Shown: positions 23,927 through 32,907 of the stretch, piece after piece
Layout of the letters: each line of letters starts with the position of its first letter
Numbering within the stretch: position 1 is the first letter of the stretch
Source: an uncultured Bacteroidota bacterium
GTDB lineage: Bacteria; Bacteroidota; Bacteroidia; UKL13-3
Direction of reading: 5' to 3'
Length of the DNA: 64,000 nucleotides
Assembly (NCBI GenBank): GCA_903883965.1
Contig: CAISCU010000014.1
Location: 1-64,000 of the forward strand
Notes under the pieces: model-generated
What the model was told of the DNA's origin: nothing
What the model saw: only the letters and a program-made list of their open reading frames with translations
Database searches by the model: none
Position numbers and translations under genes: made by a program

Positions 23927-24256
23927 CTATTCTTCAAGTATCCTTTTCTTAAACTTTGGCGCTCTCTTCTTAGTCAATATCCCCGCATCTTGAAGTTTCC
24001 TTCCTAAAATATCCTCTCCAGCAACCTTTAATAGGTCTTTTTCTAAACCTACAACAAATAGTACTTGCAGATAGCTGCCGATTGAAACGGTTGGACTTCC
24101 TTGCTCAATGTTGTAAATCGTTTTTCTACTTGTACCTGTCCTTTCCGACATTTGTTCTGAGCTTATTCTGCGGCGTAATCGCGCTAGTTTGATATTCTCT
24201 CCTAATTCTTTGAGAATTTTGAGATTCTTAGGCAATATAGCTGGTGCTGTTTTCAT
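23927..24256 (-). CDS. Xre-family HTH regulator (HipB-like)
   Basis: LGENIKLARLRRRISSEQMSERTGTSRKTIYNIEQGSPTVSIGSYLQVLFVVGL. Confidence 0.88.
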   Translation of the reverse strand: MKTAPAILPKNLKILKELGENIKLARLRRRISSEQMSERTGTSRKTIYNIEQGSPTVSIGSYLQVLFVVGLEKDLLKVAGEDILGRKLQDAGILTKKRAPKFKKRILEE

Positions 24257-24504: not shown

Positions 24505-26676
24505 TTAAATCAAAACCTTTCTAAAAATCCCAACTACCCTCAAGTTTTGGGTTTCTTCATTGCGAAGTACAATAGGCTCGTATGCCATTGTAGATTTTGG
24601 CAATAGTTGAATCTCCAAATGCTCAAATGATTCCTCAGAAATCACTTTCTTGCTGCGATACTCCTTCACCGTATAATTCGATCCAAAATCTGAATCTTTG
24701 AAATCCGTTAATTCCACCAGCGTTATTAACCCATTGCGCGATCCATGTTGGTATCGCTCAAACAAACAAATCGATCCATTGGGAATGATTTTATTCATGG
24801 ACTCCCCAACAACCTTACATGCAAAAAAATCGTTCTTATTCTTTAATTGCGATTCCAATTCAATAAACTGTAACGATTCAACCTTCTGAATTCCACTAAA
24901 TAACCCTGCCGCAATTTTTAAATCGTAAAAAGGAATTGTGAATGAATTCGGTTCATCCAATATCCGCAAAGAAACGGAATTATTAGCCGCCTCAAAAGTT
25001 CTAAAATAGCCTTTTAAATACTTGCGCATTCCTTGATTACAAGCATATATAAAAGTTCCTTTCATCCCCCTTAGCATAATGGTTCTGTAAATATTGATTA
25101 TAAAATTATGAAGAACGTCATAGTCTGTAATGGTATTTTTACCAGCCTTATCCTTATAATTTTCCTTTATCACAATTAATTTCTGCTTCTCAAAATCATA
25201 ATCAATCTCAGGCCCAATAATTACACCTGTATAATTCAAATCATAGCCCTGGGTAGTATGAATGCAGCCTACTTCATTAATCGCATTTGTAGAATTCACC
25301 CAATCAATCGCCAAACTATTCCATCGTAGTTTTACATCCTGAATCTCAATATCAAAAACTAATTTATCCTTCTTCGACTTCCATTCCCAAGCATATCCTG
25401 CCACCATTCTTGACAAACCATCCATTTTATCTTTCCTACCAATCGCTTCCACCATATCCTGAATATTATCATAAATTAAGCATTCATATTCGGGCGACTG
25501 ATATGTTGAACCAGAAGAAATTTTGCCACTAAAAACATCATTCAGCAAATTCACATATTCATTTCCACCTTTGCAACGGAACTGTGTTTTCAAAACTTCA
25601 ATTCTCGTATATTCACTATGCTCTAATGCATCAAATCTTTCACGCAACACATCTGATGGTTTCACACTTTGATTGCGGTCATAAAATAATAACAACTTAT
25701 TCGATTGTTTAATTAACCAATCTAACTCAGATGCTTTTGAATGATCAAAACCTAATTGAGCACATACCTCATCAAAAGGTTTAAAATAAGGACCCAAATT
25801 AACCCTTCTCCTCAATCGATGTGCCTCATCAACAATCACCAAATCATATTTTCTTTTCGCCAAATCCGACGGTCCGATTACCATATTCGGCGATAACCCT
25901 TGAATATTTTTAAAAACCCTAGAAATGGTTTTTCTAAACGATGCCATGGGGATGCACAAAGCCATTTCCAAGTCGCCATAATGCAATCTTACTTGTTTCA
26001 GCAAATCAAACAACTCCTCATCTTGCTCATCAAAATCAGCGAAATTAAAATCATCTAAGTTTGTTTTGAGCAATTTGAATAAAAATATCGCTAAAATAGA
26101 CTTTCCAGTACCAGCCCCTCCTTGTATCAAACTTACTTTATTACCTTTATCAAGCAGGCATTCCAAAATCAATTTCAAACTTGTAACTTGCTCAGCAGAC
26201 AGAGATTTGTAAGGCGAATATTTAAACAAATCAGAATTACTAATATGTTCCAATGAATGCCTAGCAATTCCCAAAGTCCTCAACTCACTCCATATATCTG
26301 CGAATAAGTTCCAATACTCCTGTTTCTGATAATAGCGATGGTTGGCAATTCCCAAATTGCCATTCTTCAATTGATATTGCCCATCAGCATTAATGTATCG
26401 TATTAAATTCGACTCAACGTCCAAAGTGGCCGATTTATTAAAAAGCTCACTGAGTATCAAGCTCACAGAGGAAAGTTCCTTTTTATTGATCGATTTAGAA
26501 TGAGCGCGCATTCTTTTTATGACATCGGTTGTTTCCCCTACATATGCGCTTTTATTTTTATTATTATTTAAAAAATAAACTAGCGGCCAAGAAACAAAAT
26601 CTCTATGATTTAAGATAATTTCCGACTCTAAATCGGTATCAAAATTATAATTAGAAATTGTAAACTGTTTGCCCAT
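24505..26676 (-). CDS. GIY-YIG nuclease-like / DUF2075 (Schlafen group 3-like) helicase / LexA-S24-like peptidase fusion
   Basis: N-term LVYFLNNNKNKSAYVGETTDVIKRMRAH...VESNLIRYI; Walker A QGGAGTGKSIL, VIVDEAHRLRR; C-term KIAAG...VVGESM...YTVKEY resembling the LexA/UmuD AG cleavage site and Ser-Lys dyad. Confidence 0.85.
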   Translation of the reverse strand: MGKQFTISNYNFDTDLESEIILNHRDFVSWPLVYFLNNNKNKSAYVGETTDVIKRMRAHSKSINKKELSSVSLILSELFNKSATLDVESNLIRYINADGQYQLKNGNLGIANHRYYQKQEYWNLFADIWSELRTLGIARHSLEHISNSDLFKYSPYKSLSAEQVTSLKLILECLLDKGNKVSLIQGGAGTGKSILAIFLFKLLKTNLDDFNFADFDEQDEELFDLLKQVRLHYGDLEMALCIPMASFRKTISRVFKNIQGLSPNMVIGPSDLAKRKYDLVIVDEAHRLRRRVNLGPYFKPFDEVCAQLGFDHSKASELDWLIKQSNKLLLFYDRNQSVKPSDVLRERFDALEHSEYTRIEVLKTQFRCKGGNEYVNLLNDVFSGKISSGSTYQSPEYECLIYDNIQDMVEAIGRKDKMDGLSRMVAGYAWEWKSKKDKLVFDIEIQDVKLRWNSLAIDWVNSTNAINEVGCIHTTQGYDLNYTGVIIGPEIDYDFEKQKLIVIKENYKDKAGKNTITDYDVLHNFIINIYRTIMLRGMKGTFIYACNQGMRKYLKGYFRTFEAANNSVSLRILDEPNSFTIPFYDLKIAAGLFSGIQKVESLQFIELESQLKNKNDFFACKVVGESMNKIIPNGSICLFERYQHGSRNGLITLVELTDFKDSDFGSNYTVKEYRSKKVISEESFEHLEIQLLPKSTMAYEPIVLRNEETQNLRVVGIFRKVLI

Positions 26677-27009
26677 CTACAAAGAATTGTATTTATCGGC
26701 TTTTCCTTTAGATTTTTCAACCGGATATTTAGCAGCATTTTTAGCAATCTTTGAATCAATAATCGTAGTAAAATCTAAATTATAATGATTCATGAGTAAA
26801 AGCGCATATGAAAATACATCGGCCAATTCTTCTTTAACTTTCTCTAGATTGGCATTATTAGGTGATTTCCATAAGTACAATTCCATCAATTCATTGGCTT
26901 CTATAGATAGTGCAATAGCCAAATCTTTAGGATTGTGAAATTGCTCCCAATCTCTTTCATTTCTGAATTGAATAAGCTTCTGAACGGTATCTTTTATATC
27001 CTCTGTCAT
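26677..27009 (-). CDS. MazG-like nucleotide pyrophosphohydrolase
   Basis: RDWEQFHNPKDLAIALSIEANELMELYLW...VKEELADVFSYALLL (MazG-type E-E-E-D metal-binding pattern). Confidence 0.9.
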   Translation of the reverse strand: MTEDIKDTVQKLIQFRNERDWEQFHNPKDLAIALSIEANELMELYLWKSPNNANLEKVKEELADVFSYALLLMNHYNLDFTTIIDSKIAKNAAKYPVEKSKGKADKYNSL

Positions 27010-29422: not shown

Positions 29423-29481
29423 GATAAGTCATTGCCACTAACAAATTATTGGGCGTAATTGCAGGCTCAAATTTGACTAAA

Positions 29482-29886
29482 ATGGAATTAAAACCATACC
29501 TCATTTTTCAGGGCAATGCTGAAGCTGCCATGAATTTTTATATAGCTTGTTTTCAGGCAGAAATTGTTGGCATTAACCGTTACGACAATGCCCCAATGGA
29601 AATACCAGAAAATTACACCAACAAAATCTTGCATGCCGAAATTAAAATAGGCAGCCAATCTATGTTATTCTGTGATATTTTACCCGACCGACCTTTTGTG
29701 CAAGGCAGCAATTTCTCTATGTCGGTAGACATTCCTCAAGTTATGGAAATGGATAAAGTTTTCAATCAATTGGCGGTAAACGGTAAGGTTGAAATGCCCT
29801 TACAAGATACTTTTTGGGGAGCCCGTTTTGGCATTTTAATTGACCAATTTGGCATTAGGTGGATGTTGAACTGCGATTTAAATTAA
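29482..29886 (+). CDS. VOC family (PhnB-like) protein
   Basis: YLIFQGNAEAAMNFY...ILHAEIKIGSQSMLFCD...DTFWGARFGILIDQFGIRWMLN. Confidence 0.85.
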   Translation: MELKPYLIFQGNAEAAMNFYIACFQAEIVGINRYDNAPMEIPENYTNKILHAEIKIGSQSMLFCDILPDRPFVQGSNFSMSVDIPQVMEMDKVFNQLAVNGKVEMPLQDTFWGARFGILIDQFGIRWMLNCDLN

Positions 29887-30859
29887 AAGTTTTATATACT
29901 GCTTTTAAACGCAAAAAGGTATTGTAACAATTGGGGGTTTGTTCACCTTTAACCCTGGCCATATACCTAATTTTACCTAGCAAAATACGCACAAAATGTT
30001 GTTCGTTTGCAATGGCCTTGTGTTGATTTTTGCGCGCGTAATTTTGCATAGCATGGGTTAATCCATTCGTTTCTGCATCATGCAAAATGGCGCGCAACAA
30101 ACGGTAATACCGCCTGTCTAAATTCATTTTTTGATTCACTTTAATACCCGTTACATACTTGGCCTGATGGGGCCCAGCCATTCTGTATTTTTTAGGGTTC
30201 ACCTCAAAGCCTTCTTTCCATAAGAGTTCCATCACCAATTGGTCAAAGAAAATTGGGAAAGGAGTATGGCTCGAAAAACTCAAATCATCGGCATAACGGG
30301 TATAAATAATTGAGGAATTTAAATGCGATTCCAACAGTTGTTGCATCCTAAAATCTAAATGCCTGCAAACAATATTCGACAACAACGGAGAACTGGGCGC
30401 ACCCATAGGCAAACGCCCATCAATTGTGCACAACAATGCAAATTGAACCGCCATTTCATAAGTAAAACCAAAGGGTTCCAATTGCAATGCTGACACTACT
30501 TTTTTGGTGCTGATGGCATGAAAAAAATCTTTGATATCTAAGTTCAACAAATATGCCTTTTTCAAATGGCTGGTGGCATTGCTAAGGTTATTCCTATTAG
30601 AAAAAAAGGGTCCATTTTTCACAAAACCATGTACCTGATCTGGAGCTTGATACAGTTTGTTCAAATAACTGACAATGGCCAATTGTACACTTTTTAAATC
30701 CGGCTCTGGCGACTCAATGGTTCTTTTGCCCCCACTTTTCTTTGGAATTTGAAATGTGGTATATTTAGGGTTAGACATGAGTTCCATACAACGCAATATG
30801 TCTATGCGGTATGCTTCGCAAAAACTATCTAAACTATTGTATTTAATTGGATTGTTCAT
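29855..30859 (-). CDS. Retron reverse transcriptase
   Basis: SNATSH (NAxxH), LNLDIKDFF, GRLPMGAPSSPLLSN, YTRYADDLSFS catalytic motif, YVTGIKVN (VTG). Confidence 0.92.
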   Translation of the reverse strand: MNNPIKYNSLDSFCEAYRIDILRCMELMSNPKYTTFQIPKKSGGKRTIESPEPDLKSVQLAIVSYLNKLYQAPDQVHGFVKNGPFFSNRNNLSNATSHLKKAYLLNLDIKDFFHAISTKKVVSALQLEPFGFTYEMAVQFALLCTIDGRLPMGAPSSPLLSNIVCRHLDFRMQQLLESHLNSSIIYTRYADDLSFSSHTPFPIFFDQLVMELLWKEGFEVNPKKYRMAGPHQAKYVTGIKVNQKMNLDRRYYRLLRAILHDAETNGLTHAMQNYARKNQHKAIANEQHFVRILLGKIRYMARVKGEQTPNCYNTFLRLKAVYKTFNLNRSSTST

Positions 30860-30867
30860 GTACTTAA

Positions 30868-31013
30868 AAACCAGTGCTGCTTGTTTGATCTATTTACCAA
30901 TAGGACACATTTTCGCAGAAAATGCTAACCCATTGCCCCTAGTTACACAGACTGCAGTTACACAGCCAAAGACGGGTATTTCTTCATCAATTTTTGCAAG
31001 CAAGCACTGGCTC
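30868..31013 (-). ncRNA. Candidate retron msr-msd ncRNA
   Basis: Immediately upstream of the RT; flanking inverted repeats CCAGTGCTTGCTTG (a1, 30997-31010) and CAAGCAGCACTGG (a2, 30871-30883) pair over 13 bp with one bulge; internal hairpin 30898-30935 containing CATTTTC-TGC-GAAAATG. Confidence 0.7.
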
Positions 31014-31019
31014 ATTATT

Positions 31020-32360
31020 TTAAAGTTCTTTCAATCTGTTTACTGGAATGGTACTTTTAACTTGGCTTGATGTATTGAATCTGCCAAATACATCATATGA
31101 AATACGCACTGTTCCTGTTTGAAAACGGTTGTTTTTGGCCACCACCAATTCGGCTTGGTTCTGCGCGTTGGTACCATCTTCCCATTCGCACAAATGGTAA
31201 TAAGAAGGCCTGTATAAAAAAACCACTTGATCGGCCAATTCTTCTAACCAACCACTGTCTTTTAAATCTGATAAAATGGGCCTATTGGCATAACCTCTTT
31301 TTTCAGCATTTCTACTAATTTCAGAACCAATCAACAAACTAAAATTGTACAAAGTTGCCAGTCTTTTTAGTTCTTTGAGCACATTGCCTATGTATTTTTC
31401 TCGAGTGGTTGCCGTATTGAATTCAGGTTGTTGCAGGTATTGTATGCTATCTATGATAACCATATCTACTGGTGTCACAATCACTTGTTTTAAAATACTT
31501 GTCAGTAAATATTTTTCGTTACTTTCTAACAAATTGCAAAACTGAAACAAGCCCTCATTTTCTAATTGGTTGAGCTGTTCTATTTCTTTGTTCAATTCAG
31601 CTTCATTGGGTATTTCAAATTCAACATGATTTTCTAACGGAACTCCAAATAAATAGGCTTTTAAAAAACGTTGAGCGGTCATGCCATAGCTTAAAAACAA
31701 TACTTTTTTGCCTTGTTTAACGGTGATATCTTTGAACATAGACAACATCAATCTGGTTTTTCCCATTCCTGTTCTAGCGCCCAATACAGTCATTTGACCA
31801 GGTTCAAATCCTCCTCCTAACAATTGGTCCAATGCAGCAAAACCACTCGATAACAAATGGGTGTTTTTACGATGTACAATCTCATCTAATTGAGACAGCA
31901 ACAATCCAGAAAAAAACTGTGTAGATTGAACCGAATTGCGTTGTTTCAATTGAACCAATGAAAGCAAAGCCTGATCTATTTTTTCAGATAAACAGGATTT
32001 GGACGATGTCATTTGAGCAGCAATTTCGTTAAGCGTTCTAAGTTGATCGGCTTCAACAATCAAGGCAATACAATCTTCAACTTTAGAGGGTTCAATTTGG
32101 CATTGATTTAACCCATAAAACCACTCATTCCAAACAATTTCAGGATACTTTTCATAAACAGTTTGCTTAATTAATAAACTATCAAATGTTTGGTTCTGTT
32201 TAATTTTTTCAGCAATTGCACTAAAAATAAACCGATAAACCTGGGTTTGAATAAAGTGCTCATGTACTTGCAAAATACTCATCTGAAACACCTCTGGATA
32301 TTTCAATAAGCCTGCAATAAAATATTTCTCAAGTTCTTGAGTCTGAAACTGGGTAGTCAT
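31020..32360 (-). CDS. Divergent DnaB-like replicative helicase paralogue, candidate retron-associated gene
   Basis: SSGFAALDQLLGGGFEPGQMTVLGARTGMGKTRLML, DMVIIDSIQYLQ, RPILSDLKDSGWLEELADQVVFLYRP, AELVVAKNNRFQTGTVRISYD; N-terminal domain divergent. Confidence 0.87.
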   Translation of the reverse strand: MTTQFQTQELEKYFIAGLLKYPEVFQMSILQVHEHFIQTQVYRFIFSAIAEKIKQNQTFDSLLIKQTVYEKYPEIVWNEWFYGLNQCQIEPSKVEDCIALIVEADQLRTLNEIAAQMTSSKSCLSEKIDQALLSLVQLKQRNSVQSTQFFSGLLLSQLDEIVHRKNTHLLSSGFAALDQLLGGGFEPGQMTVLGARTGMGKTRLMLSMFKDITVKQGKKVLFLSYGMTAQRFLKAYLFGVPLENHVEFEIPNEAELNKEIEQLNQLENEGLFQFCNLLESNEKYLLTSILKQVIVTPVDMVIIDSIQYLQQPEFNTATTREKYIGNVLKELKRLATLYNFSLLIGSEISRNAEKRGYANRPILSDLKDSGWLEELADQVVFLYRPSYYHLCEWEDGTNAQNQAELVVAKNNRFQTGTVRISYDVFGRFNTSSQVKSTIPVNRLKEL

Positions 32361-32538
32361 TGTTTTCTCGAATTTTGAAATACAATAGTAATTTTAAACA
32401 GCTGTACATTTTAATAATTTAATTCACATCAAATGTAAATGCACTGATACAAAGGCTTGGCAATTTTCCACAGCAACAAAACCCTTGTTTAAACTAACTT
32501 ATATATTGTGAACAAATTTTAACAGCAAATCAATCAGG

Positions 32539-32907
32539 TTAATAAGACGGATAAAAAGCATCTTTGAAATGCGTAAAATTCATTTTTCCAGCATGCAAGT
32601 TGATGGCAACAATATCAAACCGAACTGTTTTAAAATTTGGATGCATTTTTAGGTATTCCTCAATGCCATTGATGAGTATTTTTTGTTGGTTTTTACTCAC
32701 AGATTTTTCAGGTTCTAACAAAGCATTGTACCTAGTTTTTACCTCAACAACCACCAGCTCGTTGTTGTCTTTCATCAAAATATCAATCTCGGCTCTCCTG
32801 ATTCTGTAATTGGTTGCGAGCAATTCGTAACCTAGTTGTAGTAAAAATTCTAACGCTTTTTGTTCGCCCCATTTACCGGTCTGTTGTTTGTTGTTTGTAG
32901 TTGCCAA
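32539..32907 (-). CDS. YraN family (UPF0102) endonuclease-like protein
   Basis: GKWGEQKALEFLLQLGYELLATNYRIRRAEIDILMKDNNELVVVEVKTR. Confidence 0.92.
   Translation of the reverse strand: MATTNNKQQTGKWGEQKALEFLLQLGYELLATNYRIRRAEIDILMKDNNELVVVEVKTRYNALLEPEKSVSKNQQKILINGIEEYLKMHPNFKTVRFDIVAINLHAGKMNFTHFKDAFYPSY

Follow-up and report, generated by a model that had tools for sequence, protein, structure and literature searches.

A candidate retron with a divergent DnaB-like partner in an uncultured Bacteroidota bacterium

A gene for a DnaB-like protein, an intergenic RNA and a retron-type reverse transcriptase (RT) lie together in a 64,000-nucleotide stretch of DNA from an uncultured Bacteroidota bacterium, hereafter the window. 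The locus raises the question of whether these parts form a retron and, if so, what a relative of the replicative helicase contributes to it. A first-pass annotation had proposed a new association of the three, with a decoy or dominant-negative helicase freed when the msDNA is perturbed. It is very likely that the locus is a true retron in which the DnaB-like protein is the functional partner, its msDNA and role in defence being inferred.

The features of the locus are collected in Table 1. Read 5' to 3' on the minus strand, the unit consists of the DnaB-like gene, the ncRNA and the RT. A gap of 8 nt separates the DnaB stop from the outer repeat of the RNA, close to the 6 nt or so first estimated, and another of 10 nt separates the RNA from the RT start. 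The 3' end of the RT shares 32 nt with the VOC gene. The module occupies the same location, from the VOC gene to yraN, in the genome of the window and in a second genome (G026). In a congener (G025), the VOC and yraN genes are adjacent and only 45 nt apart with the module absent. This empty site indicates that the DnaB-like gene, the ncRNA and the RT were gained or lost jointly and that nothing else travelled with them. A comparison of neighbourhoods across members identified no further conserved gene that accompanies the unit and could be a toxin. Most members are found in ordinary chromosomal surroundings.

Table 1. Coordinates of the retron-type locus and its flanking genes within the window.
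Feature	Position	Strand	Remarks
VOC/glyoxalase-like gene	29449-29886	+	One flank of the module
Inserted module, whole extent	29887-32538		Bounded by the VOC/glyoxalase-like gene and the yraN/UPF0102 gene
Retron-type RT	29855-30859	-	ORF of 334 aa
Retron-type ncRNA (msr-msd)	30870-31011	-	142 nt, structured; between the DnaB-like gene and the RT
a2 repeat, outer stem 3' arm	30870-30883	-	Pairs with a1
Long msd-type hairpin	30896-30937	-	Proposed reverse-transcribed part (predicted)
msr hairpin 2	30950-30967	-	GGCTG-TGTAAC-TGCAGTC; most conserved element over all members
msr hairpin 1	30968-30985	-	From the fold; two-sided changes at all 5 pairs of helix 2 in alignment A3
Candidate branching guanosine	~30985, just inside a1	-	Uncertain
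a1 repeat, outer stem 5' arm	30997-31011	-	Pairs with 30870-30883
DnaB-like gene	31020-32360	-	ORF of 446 aa; proposed effector
yraN/UPF0102 gene	32539-32907	-	Other flank of the module

The flanking genes are only partly defence-like, and a defence-island test of ten flanking proteins gave a mixed result. Elsewhere in the window, a protein combining GIY-YIG, Schlafen-group-3 helicase and S24 peptidase-like regions (24505-26676, minus strand) adjoins a MazG-like protein and an HTH regulator (26677-27009 and 23927-24256), and has the appearance of a defence or conflict cluster.

The RT of the window is a retron RT as judged by profile, solved relatives and invariant motifs. It matches the PADLOC models for retrons XI, XII and I-C (1e-80 to 1e-84) and, within the PDB, the retron Ec86 RT (1.9e-32), with Ec78, Ec83 and Eco8 also matched. 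The YADD, NAxxH (region X) and VTG (region Y) motifs are intact, and an alignment of 15 RT relatives (A1) demonstrates that the retron motifs are invariant (N94 A95 H98, V236 T237 G238 and Y189-D192). The same genome encodes a second RT (G000:C39:29751-30407; RVT_1, 55 bits).

The intergenic RNA has the anatomy of a retron RNA in terms of a1/a2 repeats, msr and msd hairpins and strong covariation; its production of msDNA is inferred. The predicted fold of the window RNA has an energy of -47.9 kcal/mol (z -3.66), which was equalled by one of 200 shuffled sequences. All members share a common plan in which a1 near the DnaB stop is followed by a small stem, a hairpin with the core TGTTGTTxCTGCAG or TGTGTTCCTGCA, a long hairpin that varies and a2, after which a T-run often comes. 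The hairpin core may resemble the msr of Ec86. Over 24 loci, the offset from the DnaB stop to the outer repeat is conserved at 0-32 nt and is mostly 4-13 nt.

Support for the structure comes from covariation. The consensus of 16 short-clade RNAs contains 21 pairs, 13 of which are altered on both sides with pairing kept. Pairing was observed in 92.7% of cells versus 80.4% in shuffled alignments and 22-43% when the alignment was slid, and none of 500 shuffles reached the observed covariation score. These 16 RNAs share an invariant ATG, with G23 placed just inside a1 as a possible branching guanosine; the long clade shows this pattern less plainly. Every pair of the a1/a2 stem is preserved between the window and its sister species, two-sided changes numbering three in the minimum-energy register and two in the centroid register. 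A covariance model (R1) made from the short-clade RNAs was searched over 534 kb and matched the window at 30868-31013 (19.4 bits, E 0.2), as well as G026 (23.7 bits) and the loci L065, L070, L020 and L164. The individual E-values are weak (0.02-0.5) and there was one chance match; however, the matches are convincing since they fall exactly in the gaps between DnaB-like gene and RT. An Rfam search of the window returned no retron RNA match.

The first-pass annotation had named two observations that would refute the association, namely that this is the only dnaB in the genome or that the neighbour is not conserved beside homologous RTs. Neither is the case. The genome of the window is 100% complete in 55 contigs and carries a canonical dnaB on a separate contig (G000:C13, 367 bits) with all catalytic residues intact. 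Relatives were sought by scanning genome contigs with an alignment query, a single-protein query alone having matched nothing. Among 64 genomes of the window's family there were 21 RT matches, and each of the 16 clade loci with enough upstream sequence has a same-strand DnaB-like gene directly 5' of the RT; one such gene is partial, truncated by the contig end. The remaining five comprise three matches at contig edges and two from other RT groups that have no DnaB-like gene. Of 80 named GTDB loci, 17 carry a DnaB-like gene whose distance upstream of the RT open frame is 34-237 nt. The named carriers belong to the Chitinophagales, Flavobacteriales, Cytophagales, Bacteroidales and Verrucomicrobiota and include a Bacilli MAG (L115), a MAG labelled Rhizobium (binning unchecked) and one viral contig (L164). 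The DnaB link in the Bacilli MAG looks independent because its RT falls among other RTs. A strict cut-off applied to 248 genomes sampled across the phylum yielded no additional DnaB-type member. Thus, this type of retron is common in the window's family (16-18 of 64 genomes) and rare outside it.

The pair also diverges together. Distances between the DnaB-like proteins correlate with those between the RTs (Mantel r 0.82 over 30 loci, with none of 5000 permutations as high), and the correlation remains 0.78 among divergent pairs only. When mapped on the RT tree, the DnaB label requires 5 changes versus 28 expected, a value as low being reached in 0 of 500 trials. In a FastTree phylogeny, all retron-linked DnaBs fall on one side of the branch that separates them from canonical DnaBs (support 1.0). 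By sequence, the three parts make up a compact, conserved and co-diverging unit that is gained or lost as a whole, and in this respect the proposed new association held, supported by the conserved adjacency, the RNA covariation and the empty site.

In five Saprospiraceae/Chitinophagales MAGs (L086, L097, L100, L103 and L138), an RT of about 348 aa is followed directly by a Cas1 gene, identified from its sequence with no profile search. These RTs form a separate retron-like group outside the DnaB group. An RT-CRISPR link for the window RT was rejected, as Cas1 neighbours were seen only in that different group.

The DnaB-like protein of the window may be considered in terms of its domains, fold and active site. 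The ORFs and coordinates of the first-pass annotation were confirmed, as were the motifs GARTGMGKT, DMVIIDSIQYL and RPILSDLKDSGWLEELAD. The protein scores 139.9 bits against Pfam DnaB_C, and the DnaB N domain lies just below its cut-off (19.8 versus 23 bits), which is passed by the relatives L057 and L071 (PF00772). Against the NCBI DnaB equivalog TIGR00665 the score is far below the cut-off (167.8 versus 385 bits). There was no match to PF20307 (divDNAB), and the 5027 PADLOC models gave no retron effector match, only weak hits to mad8 (3e-4) and DinG (5e-4). The claim that 446 aa is short for a DnaB did not hold, since the solved Aquifex chain has 434 and E. coli DnaB 471 residues. The claim of a divergent N-terminal domain held for the sequence; the predicted structure (mean pLDDT 84.5) still aligns over its full length with solved DnaB, namely Taq 2q6t (TM 0.67/0.71) and Aquifex 4nmn (0.66/0.71), the best TM of 0.71 being by target length. 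The model therefore predicts a full DnaB architecture of N domain and RecA-like C domain. Some other members are short forms of about 350 aa that lack the N domain and contain DnaB_C only, with scores of 255-263 bits; one of these (L079) approaches PF20307 below threshold (24.8 versus 26 bits), and another (L083) belongs to the cultured species Flavobacterium branchiophilum. An acidic tail ending in PF (DDSPF, EAPPF) was observed in canonical DnaBs (L001, L036-L055) and in short-form retron DnaBs. It resembles the C-terminal tip of SSB and is missing in the long form of the window, which ends IPVNRLKEL.

The active sites of 33 retron-linked DnaBs were compared with 21 canonical DnaBs of the same family, with K418 and the arginine finger R420 placed by alignment to Geobacillus DnaB and given in its numbering. 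All five key residues are kept in every canonical protein (21/21). The retron-linked proteins retain the Walker A lysine (31/33), the Walker B aspartate (32/33) and K418 (33/33); however, the catalytic glutamate is absent from 29 of 33 (present in 4, Asp in 15) and the arginine finger from 19 (present in 14). In the window protein, K201 of Walker A and D304 of Walker B are kept, the glutamate is replaced by glycine and the finger by asparagine. Most long forms, to which the window protein belongs, have lost both residues, with the exception of L059, which keeps both; the full five-residue set is found in L059 and L088. In short forms the glutamate is mostly an aspartate and the finger position is mostly Arg (or Lys). 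In one member (L071:7249-8661, in G030), neither the lysine of Walker A nor the aspartate of Walker B remains (GARPGIGIT, VGKIQ), and both DnaB domains and the RT neighbour are retained. From these residues, and without ATPase data, it is inferred that the window protein still binds nucleotide and that its ATP hydrolysis is poor or absent. The dN/dS of the gene relative to the sister species is 0.10 overall and 0.065 in the ATPase domain, indicating that the altered protein is under purifying selection; a decaying pseudogene is thereby ruled out for the window gene.

Two family members (L067 on G048:C2 and L068 on G049:C3) share an essentially identical block of 1.3-1.4 kb that takes in the RT, the ncRNA and ~85 residues at the C-terminal end of DnaB. 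The rest of their DnaB sequences are about 50% identical and the order of flanking genes differs. The block reads as the product of a recent exchange whose breakpoint fell within DnaB, unless it is an effect of metagenome assembly. It would follow that the C-terminal segment of DnaB may have to match or face the RT-msDNA, and these recombinants point to it as the likely contact; a breakpoint placed by chance remains possible.

Known retrons act through effectors held by msDNA, and the conserved third gene of characterised retrons is the effector (PMC13158370, PMC12548924). Retrons with a stand-alone RT and an upstream effector (II-A Ec86/Eco1, I-A Ec78/Ec83 and Eco8) share with the window the gene order effector-ncRNA-RT, the RT family, the a1/a2 repeats, the msr hairpins and the msd hairpin. 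Their known effectors are NDT-type NAD hydrolases, OLD ATPase/nucleases, HEPN, TM and cold-shock proteins, whereas that of the window is DnaB-derived. The closest RT models by score, XI (RT-protease), XII (RT-TIR) and I-C (RT-Toprim), have the effector fused to the RT, unlike the stand-alone RT and separate upstream gene seen here. Compared to canonical DnaB, the window protein has the fold over its full length and Walker A/B in common, but it is less than 30% identical, falls in a separate clade, is a second copy in addition to an intact dnaB, and belongs to a group that has lost the catalytic glutamate and arginine finger. The divDNAB family is likewise a divergent DnaB-like ATPase, with no retron link described in the literature searched. 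That literature contained no retron-DnaB pairing, the original 13-type classification paper and a 2021 RT review lying outside the search, and a 2026 preprint lists sixteen retron subtypes by effector with none being DnaB. The effector class thus appears to be undescribed, a statement based on the PADLOC models, on searches of full texts and on papers that quote type lists.

It is likely that the DnaB-like partner is a toxic effector rather than an accessory, its toxicity not having been shown. By analogy with known retrons, the RT would make msDNA from the ncRNA, and RT-msDNA would keep the DnaB-like protein in an inactive complex. A phage protein that binds, modifies or degrades the msDNA may then free the DnaB-like protein, which is inferred to bind nucleotide and to oligomerise or mix with DnaB-type rings. 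Since the freed protein is proposed to hydrolyse ATP poorly or not at all, it would block on ssDNA or in the replisome, and host and/or phage replication would stop. Whether toxicity arises by such jamming of DnaB-dependent replication could go either way without toxicity data. As an overall account, an undescribed retron type whose DnaB-derived pseudo-helicase jams replication on release is the best explanation at hand, with the odds balanced on its being correct as msDNA, toxicity and defence are all inferred. The decoy helicase of the first-pass annotation fits the full DnaB architecture, the lost glutamate and arginine finger and the purifying selection, and is therefore consistent but not shown. 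The short forms have no N domain and keep more of the active site, so a decoy may not suit all members. A RecA in which Glu96 is changed to Asp (E96D) is a slow-hydrolysing toxic protein, which may offer a parallel for the short forms.

A bolder reading, in which RT-msDNA guards a disabled replicative helicase that is freed on phage attack and poisons DnaB rings or ssDNA at forks, is tentative and we would lean slightly against it. If true, no earlier retron would be known to attack the replisome by means of a pseudo-enzyme derived from the replicative helicase of the host itself. The effector is what defines a retron type, and those known include nucleases, NAD-hydrolases, RNases and membrane proteins. 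If confirmed, a pseudo-helicase derived from DnaB would add replication arrest as a new retron output, and a toxin that is itself a degenerate paralogue of essential host machinery would be a new principle. With this locus, it becomes testable whether msDNA guards a replisome poison.

The rival that survives best, although unlikely, is that the DnaB-like protein is a structural or processing partner and not a toxin. As a nucleotide-binding oligomer it might scaffold RT-msDNA or aid msDNA synthesis or unwinding, and defence would come from a replication block by the whole complex or from an unidentified activity. The strong DnaB-RT co-divergence, the conservation of Walker A/B with loss of hydrolysis residues, the loss of even the Walker lysine and aspartate in the G030 member and the recombination of the DnaB C-terminal segment with ncRNA-RT all favor it; the loss of catalytic residues could possibly serve a purely structural role. 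Against it, no other conserved travelling gene could be the toxin, and the third gene is the effector in characterised retrons.

Also doubtful is that the protein, at least in its short forms, is an active ring motor with a direct antiviral role, which on infection would translocate on phage replication intermediates and strip or unwind them. The short forms score well against DnaB_C and retain K and D and, in most cases, the Arg finger, with Glu changed to Asp; it is possible that they are active motors, which counts against the jamming model, as does the full residue set of L059 and L088. This rival is opposed by the long form of the window, without Glu and Arg finger, and by the absence of Glu from most of the group.

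A non-defence origin as a domesticated or mobile-element replication module, with a phage or plasmid helicase and RT in some other role, is very unlikely. Many phages carry DnaB homologues, and one member is on a viral contig; however, most members have ordinary chromosomal neighbourhoods and the locus is a discrete three-part unit with a retron RT and ncRNA and an empty site in a congener. An unrelated neighbour placed by chance, an alternative that the first-pass annotation had kept, is all but excluded, since the pair is conserved in several orders and phyla, diverges together and is absent together; no point was found in its favour.

Besides the preferred reading of a DnaB-type retron, another retron-helicase association may exist. 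At two loci (L108:4207-5550 and L118:4148-5530), a stand-alone retron-type RT is preceded by a PIF1/RecD-like helicase of about 450 aa, and at a third (L080:3287-4636) such a helicase is directly upstream of the DnaB-like gene.
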